Assembly: GCA_020073165.1 (NCBI GenBank) | Contig: JAIQFP010000021.1 | Coordinates: 1-64,000, forward strand | Direction of reading: 5' to 3' | DNA: 64,000 bases | From: Terriglobia bacterium | GTDB taxonomy: Bacteria; Acidobacteriota; Terriglobia; Terriglobales; Acidobacteriaceae | Shown: one piece after another, positions 48,665-60,973 of the stretch | Position numbering within the stretch: position 1 is the first letter of the stretch | Layout: every line of letters starts with the position of its first letter | Program-made: the position numbers and the translations under genes | Notes under the pieces: generated by a model | The model's database searches: none | Seen by the model: only the letters and a program-made list of their open reading frames with translations | What the model was told of the DNA's origin: nothing

Positions 48665-51313
48665 ATGATCGCAGCCGAGTTGGAGTCGCCCAGCGTTTCA
48701 GGTCTTAGTGAAGAACGGATTGCTTACCTGGAAGGGCTGGTCCGTCAAGCCCGGACCGCCGCCGCCGTCTTCACACAAAGCACGCAAGAGGACGTCGATC
48801 GCATTGTCAAACTCATGGTCCTGGCTGGCCTGGAGCAGGCGCAATACTTGGCCCGCCTGGCGCTTGAAGAAACTCGGCTCGGGGTGCTGGAAGACAAAGC
48901 CATCAAGAACATGGTGGCCACGGAGTTTGTCTACAACTATGTCAAGGACAAACGCACGGTGGGCACCATTCGCGAGTATCCGGAACGCAATCTGGTAGAG
49001 GTGGCAGAGCCGATCGGCGTCATCTTCTCGATGTTACCGATCACCAACCCCACGTCCACGGTTCTCTTCAAGTGCATCATGGCCATCAAGACGCGCAACG
49101 CGGTCATTTTCAGTCCGCACCCGAACGCGTGGCGTTGCTGCGCTGAGGCCGTACGGATCATGTATGAGACTGCGGTGAAACATGGCGCGCCGGAAGGGGT
49201 TTTCACCTGCCTGGAATCGCACACTCTGGAAGACAATGCCTACCTGATGCATCACAAAGACGTCGGCCTGATTGATGCCACCGGCGGGCCGGGCGCGGTC
49301 AAAGCTGCCTATAGCTCCGGGAAGCCGGCGCTGGGTGTAGGGCCGGGCAATACGCCCGTGTATCTGGAAAAAACCGCGGACCTGAATATGGCCGTGGTGG
49401 ACATCATCATCTCCAAGACGTTCGACAACGGAACCATTTGCGCCTCCGAACAGACGGTGGTGATTGATGATGAGATCTATGACGCCACGCTGAAGAAATT
49501 TGCGGAGCTGGGCGCGCACATCTGCAATGAGAAAGAGACAGAGCTGCTGAGCCGCACGGTGATCGATCCCAAGACCGGATTCATGCAGCCTATGGCAGTC
49601 GGCCAGACAGCCGCCAACATCGCTCGCTTTGTCGGGCTCTCGGTCAAACCGAACACCAAGCTGCTGATTGCGCCGATTCAAGGTGTAGGCCGCGAATACC
49701 CCCTGTCGGTGGAGAAACTTTTCCCAGTGCTCGCGGTCTATCGGGCGAAGTCCGTCGATGAGGCGCTGAAGGTGTGTGTGGACGTGAACCATTCCGGTGG
49801 GCTGGGGCACACGGCAGTCATTTTCTCGCACAACGATGAGGCCATCCAGAAGTTCGGCGAGGTGATCAACGCGGGGCGGATCATTGTGAATGCGCCGGGA
49901 TCCATCGGAGCGCTGGGTGGGGTTTACAACGACCTGGTGCCCACCTTCTCCTTCGGATGTGGCACCGGTGGCGGCAACAGCACCACCGATAACGTAAACG
50001 TGTATCACTACCTGAATATCAAGCGCGTGGCTCGGAGGACACCAGCTCATATGTGGTTCCGAGTTCCCAATCAAATTTACTTCAATATGAATGCGGTGGA
50101 GAATGTGGCCCAGTTCCCATCGCGCTGCACGATTATCCTTACCAACCCACCCCTGGAGCAGATCGGCCATGTGGATGTGGTCCGGCGCTACATTCCGCCG
50201 CAAACGCACGTCCATGTCTTGGTGATTCCGGATGCGGAGCCCGAGGTCAAGGTCGTCATGCAGGGAGTGGAGACGCTCAATTTCTACAAAGCCGACCAGA
50301 TTATCGCGCTGGGCGGCGGGTCGGTGATCGACGCGGCGAAGATCATGAAGCTTAAGTACGAGTCGCCGGACGCGGACCTGGAGGAACTGGCGGCGCCGTT
50401 CCTGGACCTGCGCAAGCGCGTGATTCAGTACCCGACCGAAAAAGTCAACCGGGCCCGGTTGATTGCCATCTCCACCACCAGCGGAACGGGGAGCGAAATC
50501 ACTCCCTTTGCCGTTATGTTCGACAGAGAACACGGGCGCAAGGTGACGCTGGCCGACTATTCGCTGAGTCCGGATGTAGCCATCGTCGACCCGCAGTTTG
50601 TGATGTCCATGCCCAAGGGCCTTACTGCCGATACCGGTGTTGACTGTTTGACCCACGCACTGGAAGCTGGAGTCTCGATTTTCGCTTCACCTTACACCGA
50701 CTGCAATGCCATGCAGGCAATTCGGCTGGCGTTCAAGTACCTGCCCATCGCGTATGAGAATCCCCGCGATGAAGAGGCGCGTACCATGATGCACAACGCC
50801 GCCTGCATTGCGGCGATGGCGTTTTCCAACGCGTCGGTGGGGGTGAATCACGCGCTGGCGCATGCCTTCGGCGCGCGCTTCGGCGTCCCGCACGGGCGGG
50901 CCAACGCGCTCATGTTGCCGCATGTCATTGCCTTCAATGCGGCGGTGCCCACCAAGTTCATGCCGTCGCCGAACCAGGGCGGCTACATCGCCCACAAGAA
51001 ATACGCCATGATGGCGGACTTGCTCGGTTTGGGCGGTCATACGATTGAAGAGAAGGTGCAGAACCTGGTAGAGGCGGTAGAAAAGTTGCTCGACCAGTTG
51101 GCGATGCCGCGTTCCATTGCCGCGCTGGGCATCTCCAAGGAAGAATTCGAGAGGGCGATCCCCGACCTGGCCAAGATTGCTTTTGACGATCCTTCCTGGC
51201 GGTCGAACCCCCGCCTGCCCCTGGTAAACGAGTTGGTCGGTCTGTTCTGGAGCGCTTATCAAGGGCGAGGCCAGGCTAAGGTAGCCAGTGCCACGAAACA
51301 GCAAACCGCGTGA
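48665..51313 (+). CDS. adhE: Bifunctional aldehyde/alcohol dehydrogenase AdhE
   Basis: An 882-residue fusion that reduces acetyl-CoA to acetaldehyde and then to ethanol with NADH. The N-terminal half is a CoA-acylating aldehyde dehydrogenase: VAEPIGVIFSMLPITNPTST, KPALGVGPGNTPVYLE and catalytic Cys259 in NGTICASEQ. The C-terminal half is an iron-dependent alcohol dehydrogenase: IALGGGSVIDAAKIM, STTSGTGSEITPFAV, DCLTHALEAG and the metal-binding HAFGARFGVPHGRANA. Both halves are complete, and length is as usual for AdhE (about 870-890). ATG 48665 is preferred because GGAGG lies 7 bases upstream; GTG 48644 is an in-frame alternative. AdhE forms long filaments (spirosomes) in known species. It indicates fermentative capacity and is followed after 3 bases by a STAS-domain gene. 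Confidence 0.95.
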   Translation: MIAAELESPSVSGLSEERIAYLEGLVRQARTAAAVFTQSTQEDVDRIVKLMVLAGLEQAQYLARLALEETRLGVLEDKAIKNMVATEFVYNYVKDKRTVGTIREYPERNLVEVAEPIGVIFSMLPITNPTSTVLFKCIMAIKTRNAVIFSPHPNAWRCCAEAVRIMYETAVKHGAPEGVFTCLESHTLEDNAYLMHHKDVGLIDATGGPGAVKAAYSSGKPALGVGPGNTPVYLEKTADLNMAVVDIIISKTFDNGTICASEQTVVIDDEIYDATLKKFAELGAHICNEKETELLSRTVIDPKTGFMQPMAVGQTAANIARFVGLSVKPNTKLLIAPIQGVGREYPLSVEKLFPVLAVYRAKSVDEALKVCVDVNHSGGLGHTAVIFSHNDEAIQKFGEVINAGRIIVNAPGSIGALGGVYNDLVPTFSFGCGTGGGNSTTDNVNVYHYLNIKRVARRTPAHMWFRVPNQIYFNMNAVENVAQFPSRCTIILTNPPLEQIGHVDVVRRYIPPQTHVHVLVIPDAEPEVKVVMQGVETLNFYKADQIIALGGGSVIDAAKIMKLKYESPDADLEELAAPFLDLRKRVIQYPTEKVNRARLIAISTTSGTGSEITPFAVMFDREHGRKVTLADYSLSPDVAIVDPQFVMSMPKGLTADTGVDCLTHALEAGVSIFASPYTDCNAMQAIRLAFKYLPIAYENPRDEEARTMMHNAACIAAMAFSNASVGVNHALAHAFGARFGVPHGRANALMLPHVIAFNAAVPTKFMPSPNQGGYIAHKKYAMMADLLGLGGHTIEEKVQNLVEAVEKLLDQLAMPRSIAALGISKEEFERAIPDLAKIAFDDPSWRSNPRLPLVNELVGLFWSAYQGRGQAKVASATKQQTA

Positions 51314-51316
51314 GGG

Positions 51317-51604
51317 ATGGTTGCGCCTATGGAAATGATTGCCGTGTGGCTCAAAATTGATGGAGAGCACGTCGCCGAAACTCTGCAAGAAGCCTGTGAG
51401 AAGCTGGACAGCGCCGATGGTGAAGTAGTGCTGGATTTTTCTTCCGTGCGCCGAATTGACCCGGGCGCGCTCACCGCAATGGAAAAGTTGGCTACTGCGG
51501 CTGCCGACAAGGACGTCAAGGTCGTGTTGCGCGGGGTCAACGTCGAGGTCTACAAAGTGCTCAAGCTGGTGAAGGTGGCCTCGCGATTCGGCTTCTTGAA
51601 CTGA
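51317..51604 (+). CDS. STAS-domain protein (anti-sigma-factor antagonist-like)
   Basis: A 95-residue single STAS domain: strand MIAVWLKIDGEHVAE, helix TLQEACEKLDSADGEVVLDFSSVRRIDPGALTAMEKLA, then DVKVVLRGVNVEVYKVLKLVKVASRFGFLN. In anti-sigma antagonists the Ser of the Asp-(F)-S-x-x-x-x-I-D-S loop is phosphorylated. Here that loop reads RRIDPGALT: the usual Ser is Pro, so phospho-control of the classic type appears lost. It starts 3 bases after adhE (ATG 51317, or ATG 51329 as alternative), so it is co-translated with it. Coupling a STAS gene to adhE is unusual; its job is unknown. It could belong to a stressosome with the RsbRD-N-like protein (46,003), which is inference. Confidence 0.75.
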   Translation: MVAPMEMIAVWLKIDGEHVAETLQEACEKLDSADGEVVLDFSSVRRIDPGALTAMEKLATAAADKDVKVVLRGVNVEVYKVLKLVKVASRFGFLN

Positions 51605-51647
51605 GACGCGGGCCGTGTGAGTCTGGCCTGAAACGTGCGCGCCGGGC

Positions 51648-53342
51648 TTACGCCAGCTCCAAGTCAATCTTCTTCATCGCCGGATCCAGCTTCGCAACCC
51701 GAAAACTGCGGATCTGTCCTGGGCGGACACCCTCGGGCGTGGACGGACCTCCAGCAGCACCGCCCTTCCAGCGCGCTTGCAGCATGGAACTCAGTGATGA
51801 CAAATCGGGCTTCGATCCGGCCTGCCTCTCTTCTTCTGACTTTTTCTCCGCCGCCTCTGCCGGGACTCGGCACATGCCCTGGATGCCTTCGCCCAGTTCC
51901 ACGCGCGCCTGTCCACCCGCAATCTCCATCACGCGGCCCGAGACGACGTCGCCTTCCCGGCGTTCGGCGATGTATTCCTCGATGCTGGTCGGAACCAGCT
52001 GCTTCATCCCCAGCTTCAAGCGCCGCCTCTCCGTATCGACTTCGAGCACTTGCGCCTTCACCAGTTGCCCAACCTTCAGCATGTCCTGAGGGTGATTGAT
52101 GCGCTTCTCGGCGCTCATGTCACTGATGTGAATCATGCCTTCGACGCCTTCCGAGAGCTGCACGAAGGCTCCAAACTTGGTGAGGCTGGTGACCGGACCT
52201 TCGATCACCGAGCCCACCGCAAACTTCTGGGCCACGTCGGCCCACGGGTCGCCCAGCGCCTGCTTCAGGCCCAAAGAGATGCGGCGCTCGCCCGGGTTGA
52301 CGCCCAGAATCACCGCTTCTACGTTCTCGCCCGGCTTAACCACGTCGGTGGGTGTCCTCACCTTCTTTCCCCACGACATCTCCGAGATATGGATAAGCCC
52401 CTCAAGCCCGGGCTCGAGTTCCACAAACGCGCCGAAACCGAGAACGCGCGTGACCGTGCCGCGCGCACGCTCGCCGGGCTTGTATTTCGCTGTCACCGAA
52501 TCCCATGGATCCGGCCCCAGCTGCTTCAGGCCGACAGAAATGCGGCGCTTCTCAGGATCAATCTTGAGAACCTTGACTTCGACCTCGTCGCCCACCGAGA
52601 GTACGTCCACCGGCTTGCTGACGCGGCTTCTGGAAATGTCGCTGACGTGCAGCAGCGCGTCCACCCCGCCAATATCGATGAAAGCGCCGTAATCGGTCAG
52701 GCTGCGAACCGTGCCGTGCACCGTCGCGCCTTCCTTGACTTCCGAATAGCGGCGGTCTTTCCCCGCGCGCTCTTCCTCTTCGGCCACGATGCGGCGGTCC
52801 ACGACCACATCTTCCTCTGCCGCATCGAGCTTGGTAATCCGGCAGCGGATCTCCTGTTCTACCAACTTCTCCATCTCAGCTGCGTCACGGCATCCGCTGC
52901 GCGAAGCCGGCATAAACGCCCGCACACCCACATCCACGCTCAGGCCACCCTTGACCACGGCTGTCACCGTGCCCACGATGGTCGTCTTCTCGGCAAACGC
53001 CTTCTCCAGTGACGCCCAATCCTTCGGCCGTTCGATTCTGCCGCGGGTGAGCTCGTAATAGCCCTCGGGATCGCGACCTTTGATCGAGACCACCAGCTTG
53101 TCGCCGGGCTTCACGGTTTCGCCAGCACCTTGGAAGGCTGCCAGCGGCAGGATCCCTTCAGTCTTGAAACCGATGTCGACGAGAACCGAATCGACGGTGA
53201 CGGCAATCACCGTGCCTTCGCGACCTTTTCCCGCTTCCGCGGGCTTGCGGGTCTTGCTCTCCTCGAACTGGGAAAGAATGTCTTTGAATGACCGGTCCGG
53301 TTCGTTGACAGGTTGGGATTCTGGACTGCCTGGATTGGACAT
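51648..53342 (-). CDS. rpsA: Ribosomal protein S1 (S1-domain RNA-binding protein, six domains)
   Basis: A 564-residue protein. Six S1/OB-type domains follow a short acidic lead: about residues 41-105 (GREGTVIAVTVDSVLVDIG), 120-185 (IVGTVTAVVKGGLSVDVG), 205-275 (HGTVRSLTDYGAFIDIGG), 290-360 (RGTVTRVLGFGAFVELEPG), 375-445 (EGPVTSLTKFGAFVQLSEG) and a diverged last one (SGRVMEIAGGQARVELGEG). Domains 3-5 carry the strong GAF(I/V)-x-(I/L) core and HISDMS-type turn. The layout is that of bacterial S1, which binds mRNA at the 30S platform. Start ATG 53342 lacks a good Shine-Dalgarno, as known for some rpsA genes, where translation is autoregulated. It converges on the STAS gene with a 43-base gap. 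Confidence 0.85.
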   Translation of the reverse strand: MSNPGSPESQPVNEPDRSFKDILSQFEESKTRKPAEAGKGREGTVIAVTVDSVLVDIGFKTEGILPLAAFQGAGETVKPGDKLVVSIKGRDPEGYYELTRGRIERPKDWASLEKAFAEKTTIVGTVTAVVKGGLSVDVGVRAFMPASRSGCRDAAEMEKLVEQEIRCRITKLDAAEEDVVVDRRIVAEEEERAGKDRRYSEVKEGATVHGTVRSLTDYGAFIDIGGVDALLHVSDISRSRVSKPVDVLSVGDEVEVKVLKIDPEKRRISVGLKQLGPDPWDSVTAKYKPGERARGTVTRVLGFGAFVELEPGLEGLIHISEMSWGKKVRTPTDVVKPGENVEAVILGVNPGERRISLGLKQALGDPWADVAQKFAVGSVIEGPVTSLTKFGAFVQLSEGVEGMIHISDMSAEKRINHPQDMLKVGQLVKAQVLEVDTERRRLKLGMKQLVPTSIEEYIAERREGDVVSGRVMEIAGGQARVELGEGIQGMCRVPAEAAEKKSEEERQAGSKPDLSSLSSMLQARWKGGAAGGPSTPEGVRPGQIRSFRVAKLDPAMKKIDLELA

Positions 53343-53696
53343 GGAAGGTTGCAGCCTCACTGTGGCGCGGTCCCGAGTAGCATAACATTGTGCGATTCGT
53401 CGCTGCGGAGGTCGATAAAGGGTGGCAAGCAGTCCAGAAAGGAGTTCCTTCACCACTCCGGCAGACCGGGGGCGCGCGAGGAGCCGTGCTTCTAGCTAGG
53501 TCAAAGAAATGGCTCCTCAGGTAGGACTCGAACCTGCCTGAAAACGTCAAACGAAGGACTTAACCGAGCACGGTCAGCAATGTTAGTCCTCGTAAGTACG
53601 TGAGAGAACAAGAAGTGATTTTAGGTGATTTGCGCGATCGAGGAAGCGCATCTGTCTGGGGTCTTTGCGACGACAACAGAATTTGCAATACCGTGT
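53343..53696. other. Intergenic region with a tRNA scar
   Basis: Except for the tRNA remnant at 53,510-53,541 nothing is recognised. It should hold the rpsA leader and promoter on its left side. Confidence 0.5.
53510..53541 (-). other. tRNA-Asn 3'-end remnant (candidate attachment site)
   Basis: On the minus strand the sequence ends GGTTCGAGTCCTACCTGAGG then AGCCA: a T-loop (TTCGAGT), a T-stem, seven acceptor bases TGAGGAG and CCA, as in the 3' end of bacterial tRNA-Asn. The matching 5' half, D-arm and anticodon are missing within 90 bases. One T-stem pair is mismatched. Fragments of a tRNA 3' end are typical attachment-site scars left by integrative elements. Confidence 0.6.
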
Positions 53697-54206
53697 ATGA
53701 CAAGCACAGGTCGAACTCGCCCAGCAAAGTCTCGCGAAAGCGACGGCAAGCCCGTGAGTCAGGGCCGCCACGAATATCGCTGTTCCATCTGTGCCCACCC
53801 TCAACGGGCAGCGATTGACGAGTCATTCGTAGGGTGGGTAAGCACCACGACTATTGCCAAGGACTATTCCGTCACGCGTGACGCCATTTATCGCCATGCA
53901 CACGCGCTGGGACTGTTGGAGAGGCGCCGGCGCAACCTCCGCGCCGCACTCGAGCGCATCATCGAGAAAGCGGGCGAGGTGGAAGTCAACGCGGCTGCGG
54001 TTGTGAGCGCGGTCAGCGCATACGCCCGTATCAACGGCCGCGGTGAATGGGTTGAGCGTATGGAGACCGTGAATCTTAACGCTCTGTTCGAGCGCATGAG
54101 TGCTGCCGAACTGGAAACCTATGCCAGGGACGGGAGATTGCCGGACTGGTTTGAGGCAGCCGTAACCGCAAGGGGTCTCGACAGTCAGGGAGGCTCTGGA
54201 GGCTAG
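53697..54206 (+). CDS. Unknown protein with a CxxC…HPQR / helix-turn-helix-like part
   Basis: About 170 residues from ATG 53697; an upstream in-frame ATG at 53,625 is possible and neither has a good ribosome-binding site. It contains EYRCSICAHPQRAAIDESFV, then STTTIAKDYSVTRDAIYRHAHALG, which reads like a zinc knuckle followed by a helix-turn-helix. A long helix (RRRNLRAALERIIEKAGE) and a helical C-terminus follow. Small DNA-binding proteins of this form lie in phage-like or integrated elements, next to terminase-like genes. No known family was recognised with confidence. It is the first of three same-strand genes just past a tRNA remnant, so it likely belongs to mobile DNA. Confidence 0.5.
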   Translation: MTSTGRTRPAKSRESDGKPVSQGRHEYRCSICAHPQRAAIDESFVGWVSTTTIAKDYSVTRDAIYRHAHALGLLERRRRNLRAALERIIEKAGEVEVNAAAVVSAVSAYARINGRGEWVERMETVNLNALFERMSAAELETYARDGRLPDWFEAAVTARGLDSQGGSGG

Positions 54207-54213
54207 TAAGCCA

Positions 54214-54993
54214 TTGAACGGAAACGGAATTGGCCGAAGGCTGACCGCAACAAGCATCAGCCCCGCGGATTTCCCCCTGGGTTCTCCGCAGTCCAGAGCT
54301 GCGGCCCGCGCGCTGCTTTCACGCAAGAATGCCCTCTCGCAGTACGACGCGGATGCGCTGACCCTTTACGGAGGGGAAGTCTATCTAAATGCCTGCATGA
54401 GTCCCGACTACCAGCATCTGGCGGCCACGGCCGCTTACAGCCGCGGCAAGGAGCTGTACGAACAGCGACATGGACCTTCAGTGCCCGCCCATCTCGACCT
54501 GCATCAGCAGCGGTTCAGTCATGCGTCAGGACAGTTCGAACTGGCATTCGGTCGCGAGCCTCAAGCAGGCGATATTTTGCTGTTCGAGGACGTACAGATA
54601 ACTCACAGCCCCGCCGTGAACGGATTCCGCTTTGGACGGTTTATCGAAGCCTGGCAGCGCCGCGTTCCGGAGCTGCCCTGCCCGCTGAAGTTTGAGGATG
54701 GGAGAGTTTTCGAGCGACGTGAGCCCAGATTCAACAACGGCCAGGAGTGGGAGGAGGTGCTTGACTACCGCCCGGAATGGAATTGGCGCTGGGTAGAAGA
54801 AGAAGCCAAAGGTATGAAAGGCGAACTTTCTGAACTCGACAGCATACCCACGATCGCTGGTGTCGTCTTCTTGGGGCTTATCGACGGTAAACACAAGTGC
54901 AGGCCGGCAACGGAGGACGAACTCCGGCAGGCACGGCCTGAGCCCTCGGGGGGCATTCTCGGGCTGCTGGCGAAGGCGGCCCGTAGAGGTTAG
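54214..54993 (+). CDS. Unknown protein, 259 residues
   Basis: Not recognised. A soluble protein without signal peptide or membrane segment. The N-terminal third is helical (SPQSRAAARALLSRKNALSQ … YSRGKELYEQRHG); the middle has FELAFGREPQAGDILLFEDV and a Trp/Glu-rich WNWRWVEEEAKG; the C-terminus reads VVFLGLIDGKHKCRPATEDELR. Cys are few. It begins with a TTG at 54,214, 7 bases after the previous stop, with GGAGG further upstream; another start cannot be excluded. Same strand and tight spacing with both neighbours point to one transcription unit. The gene set resembles cargo of an integrated element. Confidence 0.5.
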   Translation: MNGNGIGRRLTATSISPADFPLGSPQSRAAARALLSRKNALSQYDADALTLYGGEVYLNACMSPDYQHLAATAAYSRGKELYEQRHGPSVPAHLDLHQQRFSHASGQFELAFGREPQAGDILLFEDVQITHSPAVNGFRFGRFIEAWQRRVPELPCPLKFEDGRVFERREPRFNNGQEWEEVLDYRPEWNWRWVEEEAKGMKGELSELDSIPTIAGVVFLGLIDGKHKCRPATEDELRQARPEPSGGILGLLAKAARRG

Positions 54994-54996
54994 AAC

Positions 54997-55389
54997 TTGA
55001 AAACAGACTTTGCTGACCTGAGCAGGAGCATAGAAGCCGTCGCTGACCCAAGGGATCACCAGATCAGCAGAGCCATGGCAGTGCTGATCAGCGCGCTTGA
55101 AGTCGGACCGAATGAGGACTCCTTAGTCAGGGAAACTGGATACCCACTGAACTTCGTCGCGTCCATCGTGAATCGGATGTGGCAAGCCGGCCTGTGGAAC
55201 ACAGAACTGATCGATGATCGGGAGTTGTGGAAATCTGACGGCAGCTTGGACGGTGCGAGCCTGTTCTTGCACGCTCTGGTTGCGCTGGGAGAGATCACGA
55301 GGGAACCCATACCAAGCGGTGCGAAGTATTTCTACGCCGCGACTGGGCAACTAGCCCACGAATGGACTTCTCCGGATCCGCTTCAGTGA
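54997..55389 (+). CDS. Unknown small protein, possible winged helix
   Basis: A 130-residue protein starting with TTG at 54,997, 3 bases after the preceding stop. The centre has ISRAMAVLISALEVGPNEDS, LVRETGYPLNFVASIVNRMW and QAGLWNTELIDD, the spacing of a winged-helix domain (helix, turn, recognition helix, wing). Near the end it has SLFLHALVALGEITREP. No family was recognised. Its place as the last gene of a three-gene set behind a tRNA remnant suggests mobile-element origin. It might regulate the set, but that is only inferred from the fold guess. Confidence 0.45.
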   Translation: MKTDFADLSRSIEAVADPRDHQISRAMAVLISALEVGPNEDSLVRETGYPLNFVASIVNRMWQAGLWNTELIDDRELWKSDGSLDGASLFLHALVALGEITREPIPSGAKYFYAATGQLAHEWTSPDPLQ

Positions 55390-55586
55390 TTTCGTTCCTA
55401 CCCATGATTTTGAGAACACGTGCCAGCGCACCGAGTGCTGCGGTGGCCCAAAAAGGGGGGGCGATGAGCAAGCCTTTGAAAAGTTGCAGATTTGCGATTG
55501 ATTCTCGACGCCATGTACCCGGACGCCGAGGACAACCCCTGATTAGTATGAACACCCAATGACTTCGGAACTGCTCAACGTTCGCG
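55390..55586. other. Intergenic region
   Basis: No gene is seen. Contains a run of seven G (about 55,455) and no recognisable site. Confidence 0.4.
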
Positions 55587-58165
55587 TCAGCGCTTCTTGG
55601 CCTCTTCGCTGCAGCAACACCGTTTGACCGTGTGCACTTCTCCCGGGCTCGTACTGAGCAGAAAGACACTGTTCTCGCTCGGAAGGTAGCTGGCCGACAC
55701 CGTGTGTTTCCCCGCTTTCAGGGTCGCCGTCTCCAATGTTGCCCGTCCGCCGGCATCGAGCCTGACCGGTCCTCCAGTCTTGGAGCCGTCTACACACTGA
55801 ACTGCACGCTTCCGATCGGAACACCCTTCCCGCTGAAGGGTCCCCGCGTCACGATCGCCGTGAACGCCGCCGTTTCTCCAACCTGGGTTGGATCTTCGTC
55901 GTCCGCCACGGTCGTGGTGGTCGCACCCAGCTTGATGCGCTGGCTCTGCAGGTAGGTTTCGGCAAAGCGCGTGTTTCCCGTGACCCTGACATCGAACACG
56001 CAATCGGCGTGCATGTTCTTGTCGGTCACTCCCAGGCATGCTTGTTCGGCGACTTGCAGAGTGGTGGGCTCGACCGGCTTTGTTTCCGGAATCACGCACG
56101 GCGGAGTTTCCATTGGCCAGCTCTTGAGGGTGAAGGTGGCGGTCGAAGTGCCCGGCGCATAGTCGAAGAGGCTTGTCTTGTCCGAGACACGCCACGCCTC
56201 TCCGAACTTCTGATACAGATCGACATAGCGTTGGTGCAACGAGGCCGGCTTCGGCCCCATCGATGTCCCGTCCGGAAGCGCGGGTAGCCAACTCCCGCGC
56301 ATGGTAGCTCCCATCAGCCCTTCCAGCGATGGCGTGCGCAGAACGTCCACGTTGAGATACCACTTACTCTCCGAGGGCCACCAACCCGGAACCACCGACA
56401 GCACAGTTTCGTTCGGGAATTCGATCTGGATGCCGCCCGCCGCCGTTGTTCTGGTGATGCGCCCGCCCGAGCCCAGATCAATTCCACTCGCTCCCAAGGT
56501 AGTTAGGCTGCCGTCAATCCGGAGTTGCAGACCGCTCGGATCCGGAACACCGCTGAGATTCGGCTGGTAGGTCACCCGGTGTGTCCCGACTTGCGCGGCT
56601 ACTGCGGTGTTGAGGCTGACGCAGGTTGCCAGTCCGGTGTAGGGGTTCGCCCCAGGGTTGAAAGAGGTCGCAACGGGCGTTTGTCGAGTTTGAACCTCCG
56701 TGCCGTCGGCGTCTCGTAGAGAAACGTACTCGCCTCCGCCCTGGAAGTCATAGTGCACCCCGCTCACCGTGGTGATGTGTGGGTCGCCTTCCATCGCGGC
56801 GGGGCCGCCCCAAACTCGGTCTGTGTAGGCATCGTAGCGGGTGGTGCCATCAGGGTTGTCCGCCGTACTGTTGGAGGTATCGGCCCAGGCCGGATGCACC
56901 AACCCCTGAAAATATGCCATGCCCGAGTAGTCCCCGAACTGGATGTCAAACTGTCCGGCAACCGGGGGATTCGAACCTGTTCCCGCTGAAAGTGCATCGC
57001 CAATCTGGGCGTTGGCCATGAAGGCTGGACTGGCCCCGGACGGTGTCGCGATGGTACAGAATTCCTCCATGGTATTGTTGCCTGGCGAATTTCGCGCATC
57101 GTGCCAGCAGACACCAATGTTGCCCGAGAGAAGATTGGTTGCAATTCTGGGCAGAAACTGGCTTCGATTCGTCATGTCATCATCGACACGGATCGGCGCG
57201 CTCCAGTTTCCCCCGTTGTTGTCGGAGAAGCGCACCATGATATTCGTGTCGTTGTTCTCATCGGTTGGCTCTTCCGTGTAGACAAGATACAGACGCGCAA
57301 AGTGCCCGCTCATCGGATTGTTGTCAAATGCGAGGCCCGGCTCCGCATCCACGGTGCGGCTGCTCTGCGCGGGAATGGAGTCAAACCCCCCCACATTCGT
57401 CGTGGTCGCCGCGATTGCGGCGCCGAAGTTGTTGGGACCTAACCCATCCGCGTCGATATTCACCATGATTGTTTCCTGTGTCTCACCGGTAGCACTGAGG
57501 AGAGTTTCACAGGCTTGCACGACGGCGCCGCCGGGAGCGACGACGACATCCCCGAAGCTGCAATTTGCGGTCCCGGGAATCACCTGCGGTGCATTGAACG
57601 CGCCCACGGTGCCCAAGCCGGTCACGGCCGCTCCGCTGGCCCGCATCTGCCCGGCCTGGTTCCATACGATCCACACCGACCCGGCGCCCACCGCCACCGA
57701 GGGTTGGTCCACGCTGGCCGGGCCGAAGGTGACTAGATTGGTGAAGGTAGCTCCTCCGTCCTGACTCAGAATGGTTTCGACCGTGTTGGCATTACCCAGA
57801 TAAGTGATAAACAGGTTGCCGAACGTGTCCCACGCCAACGCCGGATCGCAGCACGCCAGTGGACCTTGGTTGGCGTCGCCGTCGGCAATCGTCTTATCGG
57901 CTGCGTCCGGGTAAGTCCAGCTCAGACCGCCGTCCGTGCTGCGTGCGGCAAACAGGCCCCCAGTCGCGTTGTTGCAACTGGCAAAGAGTTGAAGTTTATT
58001 GGTCGGGTTCTTGGCCACGGCGCACTCATTTTGATAGTTCGCCATCTTCGACATATTCACGTCAGCAAATCCCTGCACTTGGCCGTGCGCGCTCGACATC
58101 AAGGTCAACAGCGCCACGAAAGCAGCGGCACACAGGAAGCCAGAAAAACGATTTTCTCTGCGCAT
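55587..58165 (-). pseudogene. Secreted sialidase-like/VWD-domain/Ig-like protein, split by a frameshift near its 3' end
   Basis: From ATG 58165 (GAGAGGAGATC upstream) a signal peptide (1-29, ends AHGQ) is followed by a BNR/sialidase-type propeller (about 30-400, with ARSTDGGLSWTYP, LSQDGGATFTNL and RFSDNNGGNWSAP, Asp-box-like). Next is a von Willebrand factor D-like segment (about 440-600: EGDPHITTVSGVHYDFQGGG) and a Cys-containing C-terminal region. At about 55,790 (…GVPIGSVQFSV) the frame stops, and the Ig-like domain continues in another frame (GGPVRLDAGGRATLETATL, KAGKHTVSASY) to 55,587, about 70 residues more. One indel restores it. It is either a sequencing slip or a recent loss of the last domain. 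Confidence 0.75.
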
Positions 58166-58179
58166 GTTGATCTCCTCTC

Positions 58180-58650
58180 TCACTTTTGCTGCTCAGTGGA
58201 CCAAAGTCCGCGGCGCGCCCTCCGGGCCTCTTCCTGCGCTTTGGACAACTCGCCATACTTGTAGTCGTAGTCCCGCTGCCGTTGCGCCAGCCCCGACCGC
58301 ACCAATTCCAGCCCCACATCCTTAATCCCCTTCTCCGGATCGTCCGTCAGGAGTCGCGCTATCATTTCCCCCTTGGGAGTCCGCGCCTCCAGGCGCATCC
58401 GGGCGTTCTTTCCCAGCACCAACTTCGACACGAATTCCTTCGCTTGCGCGGCCAGCGGGCCCTCTTTGGGTGTCTCGATTCCCACGATCCGAACAATGAA
58501 GCGGGCGCCTCCGTTCTCGAGCAGCACCACGTCCGCGCTCCTCACCTCCGTCACCTTTCCGTAAAGCGAGTCCCCCGCGAAGGCAGGAACCATGCCAACG
58601 CCGAGCAACAGGAAGGAGAGAAAACCTAGAATCAACCTTCTCCCTTTCAT
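58180..58650 (-). CDS. Exported SNase (thermonuclease)-like domain protein
   Basis: A 156-residue protein. ATG 58650 has CAGGAGGCTGCG upstream; the signal peptide is 1-25 (ends AFAG). The mature part has the SNase-like β-barrel: LYGKVTEVRSADVVLLENGG, FIVRIVGIETPKEGPLAAQAKEFV, NARMRLEARTPKGEMIARLLTDD, and GLELVRSGLAQRQRDYDY, ending ARRARRGLW. Family hallmarks (RxxGIDxP, the ExA stretch, GR-like strand) are present in outline. However the nuclease's key Asp is Glu here (GIETP), and the catalytic Glu and Arg are hard to place, so enzyme activity is doubtful. It precedes the sialidase-like gene by 14 bases on the same strand. Confidence 0.7.
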   Translation of the reverse strand: MKGRRLILGFLSFLLLGVGMVPAFAGDSLYGKVTEVRSADVVLLENGGARFIVRIVGIETPKEGPLAAQAKEFVSKLVLGKNARMRLEARTPKGEMIARLLTDDPEKGIKDVGLELVRSGLAQRQRDYDYKYGELSKAQEEARRARRGLWSTEQQK

Positions 58651-59545
58651 CGCAGCCTCCTGATCCAGGTTGTTGTGTCGCATATCATGAAGCAGGACAC
58701 ATCCGCTTTCGTGGCAAATTCACCCGAGCGCTCATGTACATGGATGACTGGAAAAGAGTCAACAAGCCCAGCCAACACGTTTCCGTGACCTCTGGCACCG
58801 TCGCGATGAGACGCCCAACCGAAAGGGGGCCAGACATCAATGAATGCCACGTTCGCGAATAAATGGGAGTTGAATTCTCTTGTTACCCACTATGTCGGTT
58901 CAGTGCCGGAGTACGTACCTGGCCGAAGGCCTCAATACCGGAGCGCGAACGATACGTTAAGAAAATCCGGATTAAGACACACGCTCTACGGAACTAGGGC
59001 GGATTATCTCTCGAAAAGGGCAAAGGTCAACAACAAAGTGAAATTTGTTCTGAAAATGGAACAAGGGAAAAGCGCGGGCCTAGCGGCCTGCTGAGGAGGA
59101 GACGCTGCTGCTCTAGGAGCGCGGGACAGGGGTAAGCACGACCAGGGCGAGACGTTCTGATCTTAGGTGTGTTACGGGGCACTCCGTTTCATTATGCCTG
59201 CTGCCTTCTCTCTGCCGCTTCTCATGAAGGATCCCCGGAGTCGATTCGGGAGGGTCCCTCAGCTGAACAATAACAGCGTCACAACGCGGTTCTTCGGCCT
59301 CACAAAAGACGGTGACCGGTATCACTGATTTGTAAGATGTCTTCAAATACCGTTGCGTGTGTCGCCTCTCCGAAGAGCAGTTCCCACCGAGGGGGAGGAA
59401 GTGCACACCCCTGAGGCGTCAATATTGTCGGCCCCGCAGTTTCTCATGTACGCGCACGTCGCTCGCTAACTTACCCAATTTCGAATGTTACTTTCTTGCG
59501 TCGAGGTCCATATGCTGTGAAGGTCCTCGAGGAAGGAGAACGCAG
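58651..59545. other. Long region without a convincing gene
   Basis: Two weak open frames exist: 58,840-59,094 (+, 84 codons, basic, no known motif, no clear ribosome-binding site) and 59,113-59,406 (-, 97 codons). Neither shows enough protein character to call. G+C is lower near 58,850-59,060. AAGGAGAACGCAG at the right edge serves ATG 59546. Confidence 0.45.
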
Positions 59546-59911
59546 ATGAGCACAATGGGTACTGTTCTATTCAAAGAAGGGAACTTCTTCGTGGATGTGG
59601 AAGGCAAGCATGAATTGATTCCAGTAGGCCATGAGGATGCTCCGCACCTGAAACAACTCGTGGGCAAGAAGGTGGAGGTCGTGTTCTCAGAGCCAACGAG
59701 GTTTATCGCGGGACTGATTCCTACCGAGGAAACTTTGGTCAAGATAGTGAAGGTCCTGTGCTACATTCCTGCTCCTGATTTCCGGACGGCAGTAGTTGTT
59801 GGGGAACACGCCCGCATCGAAATTGCTAAGCGAATGCTTGATGCCGGACAACTGAGCAAAGAGAACTTTGCGAAGATCACTGCTCCTCAAGAGATGAAAA
59901 GGACAGCCTAA
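59546..59911 (+). CDS. Unknown 121-residue protein coupled to a radical SAM enzyme
   Basis: Not recognised. ATG 59546 has AAGGAG 7 bases upstream. The N-terminal half is β-rich (GTVLFKEGNFFVDVEGKHEL … LVGKKVEVVFSEPTRFIAGL), which suggests a small barrel or sandwich. The second half has VKVLCYIPAPDFRTAVVVGEH, with the only Cys, then a helix ARIEIAKRMLDAGQLSKENF and a short tail. There is no signal peptide. It lies 6 bases upstream of the radical SAM/SPASM gene, in the same orientation. By position it may be the substrate or leader-binding partner of that enzyme, as in peptide-maturation loci; the protein is longer than most precursors, so a binding partner is equally possible. Confidence 0.55.
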   Translation: MSTMGTVLFKEGNFFVDVEGKHELIPVGHEDAPHLKQLVGKKVEVVFSEPTRFIAGLIPTEETLVKIVKVLCYIPAPDFRTAVVVGEHARIEIAKRMLDAGQLSKENFAKITAPQEMKRTA

Positions 59912-59917
59912 CACCCC

Positions 59918-60973
59918 ATGCCACTTGAAAGTGATTTCGAATCGAGAGCCCTTCCCAACACATTTGTGCTGGAGCTGACAAGGCGCTGCAATAACTTCTG
60001 CCTGTACTGTTATGCGGCTGAGGGACCGCTCGATCGCAACAAGGAACCCTGCGGGAGCGGCGAAATGGACACAGAGGAGATTTGTGGGCTCATAGCCCGC
60101 CTTTGCGATCAACTGCCGGTAGAGAATATTGCTCTGTCCGGGGGTGAGCCGCTCCTGCGAGGCGATCTGCCTCAAATCCTTGCGTTCTTGCGAAGCAGGC
60201 GCATCAATCCCGTGATCATCAGCAATGGCACCCTGCTGACCAAGGAAAATGTTGCTGCAACTGTCGCGGATGTTACGTATGAGGTAACGCTGCTCAGCCA
60301 TCGAGCGGGAATACACGACCATCTGGCAGGCCGGCGAGGGGCATGGCAGGCAGTGTTTGACGGAATGTGTAACGTCCGCCAGGCGGGTGGCGCCATGGTG
60401 GCCGTGTTCGTCGCCACGAAGCTCAACTACGTCGACCTGCGCCAAACCGTGGAACTCGCCATCGCTTTGGGGGCCAAAGGCCTCATGTACAACCGCATGA
60501 ACCTGGGAAGCCACAACATGCGATGGGCGGAAAAGCTGCTGCCGGCACCAAATATGCTCCAGGAAAACCTAGACGTGTTGGAGGAAGCTGGCGAACAATA
60601 TGGGTTGCCAATTGCCGTTTCCGTGCCGATCGAGCCATGCGTGGTGGACGTGCGAAAATATGAGCACATCCAGTTCGGCTGGTGCCCCCTCGCGGGCGAA
60701 GACTCCTATTTCACAATTGACCCTTCGGGAAATGTCCGTATCTGCAATCATTCCCCCGTTGTGCTGGGGAACATTCGGCAACAGTCTTTTCGGGACATCT
60801 ATTACAAGCACTCGTATGTCAAGCGGTTCCGCCAGACCTTTCCGGCGGAATGCCAGGGCTGCCCACCTGATTTGAAGCAGCTTTGTTGCGGCGGCTGCAA
60901 GGCAGCGGCCGAACAGTGCTACGGCACGCCGGAGCGGGCCGATCCTTTCGTGATTCTGAATCGTATCCACTAA
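59918..60973 (+). CDS. Radical SAM / SPASM-domain enzyme
   Basis: A 351-residue radical SAM protein. The [4Fe-4S] cluster motif is RRCNNFCLYCY (Cys24, Cys28, Cys31; C-x3-C-x2-C). The GGE SAM-binding motif is SGGEPLLRGDL (about residue 75). A C-terminal SPASM region supplies further Cys: GNVRICNHSPV, then AECQGCPPDLKQLCCGGCKAAAEQC, enough for auxiliary clusters. This layout is that of PqqE, MftC, and sactipeptide or ranthipeptide maturases, which modify peptides. No transporter, protease or other modification gene is adjacent. It starts at ATG 59918, 6 bases after a 121-residue protein gene, probably by translational coupling. It converges on a gene ending 3 bases past its stop. Confidence 0.85.
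   Translation: MPLESDFESRALPNTFVLELTRRCNNFCLYCYAAEGPLDRNKEPCGSGEMDTEEICGLIARLCDQLPVENIALSGGEPLLRGDLPQILAFLRSRRINPVIISNGTLLTKENVAATVADVTYEVTLLSHRAGIHDHLAGRRGAWQAVFDGMCNVRQAGGAMVAVFVATKLNYVDLRQTVELAIALGAKGLMYNRMNLGSHNMRWAEKLLPAPNMLQENLDVLEEAGEQYGLPIAVSVPIEPCVVDVRKYEHIQFGWCPLAGEDSYFTIDPSGNVRICNHSPVVLGNIRQQSFRDIYYKHSYVKRFRQTFPAECQGCPPDLKQLCCGGCKAAAEQCYGTPERADPFVILNRIH

Follow-up and report, generated by a model that had tools for sequence, protein, structure and literature searches.

Two adjacent genes in the window (the whole stretch of 64,000 nucleotides from a Terriglobia bacterium that was analysed) encode a radical SAM/SPASM enzyme and a 121-residue protein, and we consider, with moderate confidence, that they form an enzyme-substrate unit in which the enzyme modifies its partner at Cys72-Tyr73, with a product that probably remains a modified protein and is not turned into a secreted peptide. 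The gene pair is conserved, its small proteins share a Cys-Tyr core and the enzyme belongs to the radical SAM superfamily; the substrate role of the small protein, the modification site, the docking of the two proteins and the fate of the product are what we infer beyond these observations. No description of the gene pair was found in the openly available literature searched.

The gene pair and its setting

An earlier note on this DNA had described a two-gene unit of a radical SAM/SPASM enzyme and a small protein separated by 6 bp, and both reading frames bear this out, with 6 nt between the stop codon of the partner gene and the ATG of the radical SAM gene. The sequence AGGAAGGAG stands immediately 5' of the ATG of the partner gene. 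Features of the pair are as follows:

59534..59542 (approximate ends), + strand: Shine-Dalgarno-like stretch, read from the sequence, with a presumed function
59546..59911, + strand: partner gene (ATG 59546, stop 59911), 121 aa (P0002), proposed substrate, with a syntenic homologue upstream of each of 3 archaeal enzyme homologues
59549..59749, + strand: N-terminal domain of the partner (residues 2-68, approximately), probably beta-rich and common to the Methanothrix partner alone (shuffle test against the Methanothrix partner; strands in a low-confidence model)
59759..59764, + strand: Cys72-Tyr73 codons, proposed modification site, invariant in 4/4 partners, with Pro at 75 and 77
59804..59881, + strand: helical hairpin at the C-terminus (residues 87-112, approximately) with a weak likeness to SHOCT, candidate docking element (low-confidence model, SHOCT_2 score, shuffle test against L021)
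59918..60973, + strand: radical SAM/SPASM enzyme (ATG 59918, stop 60973), 351 aa (P0001), proposed maturase (Pfam domains, alignment, profile match to a solved relative)

Scans around the pair revealed no promoter, and terminators there were not above chance level; no RNA family was matched at the pair, nor any tRNA. The surroundings of the pair have a slightly lower GC content (0.52-0.58) than the stretch 50000-58500 (0.57-0.62). The 12 neighbouring reading frames scanned gave matches to SNase, DUF4136 and glycine-zipper families and weak BNR/VWD matches, and 0/12 matched a recombinase family, which does not agree with the recombinase remnants previously reported around the pair. On the minus strand of the window, 55790-58183 encodes a protein of 797 aa whose matches to BNR repeats and VWD are weak and do not reach the cut-off. 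Beyond the window, at about 65.4-69.5 kb of contig C18 (L044 7411-11516), a second SPASM enzyme is encoded beside another gene on the minus strand; it presumably resembles an anaerobic sulfatase maturase with a sulfatase-like neighbour. A link between this gene and the pair was rejected because it lies about 4.4 kb further on, on the other strand and with its own sulfatase-like neighbour.

The pair is more than a chance arrangement, because homologues of both of its proteins lie in synteny in archaea. Each of the four close members of the family (the window pair, L013, L020 and L021) has a small gene immediately upstream of the enzyme gene, the gap being 6 nt in the window and 9 nt in L020, while the genes of L013 and L021 overlap or nearly so, depending on the start codon. 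The suggestion that the small protein always accompanies the enzyme thus held in 4/4 close homologues, and enzymes lacking the small gene, which would speak against it, were absent among the close homologues found; strict pairing of a small gene with a maturase (4/4) is also one criterion for RiPP systems. A profile built from the four partners, whose self-matches prove nothing, gave one clear match in each of the 4 enzyme-bearing genomes among 7 genomes searched, no match in G465, G485 and G102, and one further match at chance level in G475 (E 0.55); it also matched 1 of 61 relatives and 3 of 379 genomes of the archaeal phylum, all of them enzyme-bearing. The informative point is that no orphan partner was detected in the 7 genomes, the 61 relatives or the 379 archaeal-phylum genomes. 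A hidden separate precursor was rejected, since no separate conserved small open reading frame was found near the pairs (best score 38 in 2901 comparisons; shuffles reach 48). No protease or exporter gene was conserved beside the pairs, in keeping with the earlier remark that the locus has no transporter. The 4/4 pairing, the absence of orphan partners and the absence of a conserved separate small frame support the enzyme-substrate reading; that only four pairs are known here counts against it.

The enzyme, its nearest families and its distribution

The enzyme passed the Pfam cut-offs for Radical_SAM (60.2 bits vs 29.5, with the match beginning at residue 19) and SPASM (38.2 bits vs 21.5). In the alignment, the SAM-cluster motif CxxxCxxC (C24/C28/C31) and the C-terminal cysteines C241, C256, C276, C312, C315, C323 and C327 are invariant in 4/4 enzymes. 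The seven-cysteine SPASM motif is CX9-15GX4CXnCX2CX5CX3CXnC according to PMC5715301, and when compared with that motif, 6/7 positions are kept in 4/4 enzymes (C256, C276, C312, C315, C323 and C327), the spacing in the window enzyme is X7 where the motif has X5, and the family keeps no equivalent of the last motif Cys, C334 being present in the window and Methanothrix proteins and absent from those of L020 and L021. The cluster motifs, described as complete in the earlier note, are therefore complete for CxxxCxxC and for six of the seven SPASM cysteines of that motif, the seventh not being conserved. This suggests that the second auxiliary cluster may have an open or a non-Cys ligand.

Among the 25 of 72 matched NCBIfam models listed for the enzyme, none reached its cut-off, the best being NirJ2 (TIGR04055; 104.4 bits vs 500), with AhbD (TIGR04545; 86.1 bits vs 500) in the top four; the scores for PqqE (TIGR02109; 96.3 bits vs 381.35) and viperin (pVip, NF038283; 45.4 bits vs 180) also stayed below theirs. 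A defence role was rejected because the PADLOC match is limited to the shared radical SAM core. Strong similarity to a known non-peptide family, which would argue against peptide maturation, was not seen above cut-off among the NCBIfam matches listed (NirJ2 104 vs 500). It is very improbable that the enzyme acts on a small molecule in the manner of the heme enzymes NirJ and AhbD, the small protein being a scaffold or an unrelated neighbour. NirJ2 and AhbD share the superfamily and the SPASM/twitch layout with the enzyme, and the position of a heme-pathway model as the best sub-threshold match among those listed weighs against the enzyme-substrate reading; however, both scores are far under the cut-off, no heme genes were found beside the window pair or the other pairs by family match or by eye, and a pairing kept from a bacterium to archaea would not be expected of an unrelated neighbour.

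Among solved relatives, PqqE (PDB 6c8v) is the only one whose alignment spans almost all of the enzyme, and it is the best full-length one (profile E 6.6e-17), with the same radical SAM and SPASM layout. According to PMC5715301, PqqE modifies a Glu-Tyr pair in a peptide, and this likeness, action on a Tyr-containing peptide by the best full-length solved relative, supports the enzyme-substrate reading. However, the candidate substrate in the window is a 121-aa protein with an internal Cys-Tyr, no pqq genes lie beside the window pair, and the pattern of Cys ligands differs in that the last SPASM Cys is not conserved in the window family, although PqqE itself also departs from the seven-Cys motif (Asp319). 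The second-best solved match is SkfB, which, like the other sactipeptide/ranthipeptide maturases (PapB, StsB and AlbA), is a SPASM enzyme acting on Cys of a ribosomal precursor; unlike in those systems, the core of the window partner does not lie at the C-terminus of a short peptide and there is no linked exporter, and the SkfB, PapB, StsB and AlbA models are all sub-threshold for the window enzyme. The gene pairing fits none of the curated families checked.

Close relatives of the window enzyme, 41-59% identical to it, are present in three archaeal genomes (59, 41 and 44%). A contig scan with the single protein, which finds close relatives only, returned as sole relative the enzyme of the Methanothrix MAG contig L013 (59-60% identical), a contig whose archaeal nature shows in its genes for Hef nuclease, ribosomal protein L18e and an archaeal-type L13. 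When a profile of the window and L013 enzymes was used to search further genomes, matches were obtained in the same archaeal phylum in G475 (E 4e-93), G455 (E 3e-91) and, weakly, G573. The enzyme was detected in at least 4/392 genomes of the archaeal phylum (E<=1e-35), at least 2/396 of the window's phylum (E<=1e-40; its own genome and G102), at least 1/399 of the window's class (E<=1e-60; its own genome) and at least 1/237 in the class of G446 (E<=1e-60), absences in these phylum and class counts not being strict since scoring was confined in most genomes to 5 or 8 candidates each. At E<=1e-30 it was found in 2/4 genomes in the order of G455 and 11/50 in the family of G446, where only G446 is close (E 3e-181) and the others are at 1e-36 or weaker. 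Within the limits of these searches, the enzyme family appears rare and patchy, and this rarity together with the jump between bacterium and archaeon suggests that horizontal transfer is likely. A viral origin was rejected, with no relative found in viral contigs, as was a plasmid or phage origin, the window enzyme giving only 26-28% matches among plasmids and phages, one of which (the best annotated region) is a PqqE-like gene within a pqqBCD cluster; the L021 enzyme gave no match among plasmids. Two repeat-rich regions were also observed: frames rich in repeated peptides of the HPHACGD / PPRLWGL type at about 16510-19966 of L045, which we take to be typical of a translated CRISPR array, and short tandem-repeat DNA directly 3' of the enzyme gene at about 10422-10928 of L046, with a repeated peptide in all frames.

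In a tree of 26 proteins in which long branches, L014's among them, were flagged, the four enzymes group together with L014 of G102 (100/99) and by themselves (94/95), L014 being the nearest relative outside the four. At L014 527-2448, the likely ATG of the radical SAM gene (about 1489) overlaps the stop codon of a gene for a 321-aa protein that has what looks like a membrane helix at its N-terminus. This protein was rejected as a fifth partner, having no detectable similarity to the four. That L014 groups with the four enzymes, yet has an upstream neighbour unlike the partners, counts against the enzyme-substrate reading; the difference suggests that the wider clade with L014 may serve other substrates, and L014 and its neighbour may form an enzyme-substrate pair of their own in which the site is another one.

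Mosaic architecture of the partners

The window partner contains one Cys (C72, the single cysteine already reported) and one Tyr (Y73), which are adjacent, and Cys-Tyr with a nearby Pro is common to 4/4 partners. Nothing above threshold was matched for the partner in Pfam, NCBIfam, PADLOC or PHROGs. In shuffle tests, the window N-terminal domain matched that of the Methanothrix partner (score 60, 0/2000 shuffles) and not that of L021 (691/2000), whereas the window tail matched the tails of L021 (score 51, 0/2000) and L020 (score 34, 13/2000). With the Cys-Tyr core removed, the window-L021 tail match persisted (0/2000) and the window-L020 one was at 177/2000; the hairpins of the window and L021 also matched (0/2000). 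The resemblance of the Methanothrix tail to that of the window partner is confined to the VLCY core (96/2000), and there was none to the tails of L020 and L021 (1686/2000 and 1171/2000). The L020 and L021 partners are 47% identical to each other and begin with two hydrophobic stretches that, judged by eye, look like membrane helices. The partners thus form a mosaic in which the N-terminal domain varies and the Cys-Tyr core is retained. It had been proposed to check whether the end of the small protein is variable; the variable part is instead the N-terminal domain, and the Cys-Tyr tail is common to the window partner and the membrane-type archaeal partners. As window and Methanothrix sequences are 28% identical for the partner and 59% for the enzyme, the partner evolves much faster. 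The adjacency of the sole Cys and sole Tyr and the window-L021 and window-L020 tail homology support the enzyme-substrate reading, against which stands the Methanothrix tail, not detectably similar beyond its VLCY core.

The AlphaFold model of the window partner (mean pLDDT 49) contains strands in residues 2-46, has low confidence over 46-89 around Cys72-Tyr73 and places helices, also at low confidence, at 87-99 and 105-112, so that the helical end noted previously is predicted as a C-terminal hairpin at this low confidence. A second AlphaFold model likewise had a mean pLDDT of only 48. The tail alone scored 15.7 bits for SHOCT_2 (cut-off 24) and 12.6 for SHOCT (cut-off 27), a weak profile similarity to SHOCT (PF09851, PF20612) in the C-terminal helices that is under the gathering score. 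According to PMC3581485, SHOCT is a short stretch of helix at the C-terminus of proteins that are otherwise unrelated. No paper naming both the SHOCT domain and radical SAM was found in the openly available literature searched.

This architecture bears on two further explanations. PqqE-type enzymes use a separate PqqD, and the small protein could likewise be an accessory or recognition subunit whose enzyme has its real substrate, a peptide or protein, encoded elsewhere, which we consider unlikely. Such a role would suit an enzyme without an N-terminal RRE (its radical SAM match starting near the N-terminus, as above), the pqqD gene adjoining the PqqE-like plasmid/phage match, and the stable-looking N-terminal domain common to the Methanothrix partner, but Pfam gave no RRE/PqqD match in the partner any more than in the enzyme, no other conserved small frame lies beside the pairs, and exchange of the N-terminal domain for membrane helices with Cys-Tyr kept would be unexpected of a binding subunit. 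It is also doubtful, though less so, that the system is a classical RiPP whose modified core is excised from the partner and set free as a small peptide through the action of proteases and exporters encoded elsewhere. In favour of this possibility are the small size and rapid evolution of the partner and the existence of RiPP systems, such as SCIFF, whose two-gene SPASM loci have no linked exporter; however, the conserved core is internal rather than C-terminal, neither a protease nor a transporter gene is conserved adjoining the pairs, and the partners bear a sizeable N-terminal domain or apparent membrane helices. The original proposal of an enzyme and precursor for peptide maturation thus gains from the 4/4 pairing and the lack of a non-peptide family above cut-off, but that the system is a RiPP in the strict sense is less certain, as no linked protease or exporter was found, although unlinked genes may serve these steps.

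Proposed reaction and its meaning

In the enzyme-substrate reading, the radical SAM/SPASM enzyme would act on its 121-residue partner at Cys72-Tyr73, a site suggested by a partner that changes fast but retains its Cys-Tyr core, by the strict pairing and by the PqqE-like enzyme. The reaction may form a bond involving the Cys sulphur or may be Tyr-directed as in PqqE, the nearest characterised relative. The site would be situated in a probably flexible linker between the exchangeable N-terminal domain and the C-terminal helical hairpin, and the partner's own domains probably dock on the enzyme, as no RRE was found in or adjoining it. Because the site is internal and no protease or exporter is conserved, the product is probably kept as a modified protein with a function inside the cell, or at the membrane in the case of the archaeal membrane-type partners. 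More tentatively, the enzyme could make a protein-bound cofactor or cross-link from the adjacent Cys and Tyr inside an intact carrier protein whose N-terminal domain is swapped, between a soluble beta-rich and a membrane-anchored form, and whose site is kept, an idea we hold no more firmly than the classical RiPP. Our confidences in the several readings do not sum to one, because the classical RiPP partly overlaps the preferred one.

The pair is a good candidate for bench work on the proposed Cys-Tyr chemistry, and its minimal two-gene set makes it directly testable with two proteins and one candidate site. If the more tentative idea of a modified carrier protein is true, the pair would represent a class of radical SAM protein maturation that occurs in bacteria as well as methanogens and is separate from RiPPs that are secreted. 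A radical SAM substrate in which an adjacent Cys and Tyr are all that is invariant would present an unusual target, and the domain swap would mean that selection keeps the site and not the carrier. If the product stays in place, the pair would add a route to a protein-derived group in bacteria and archaea.
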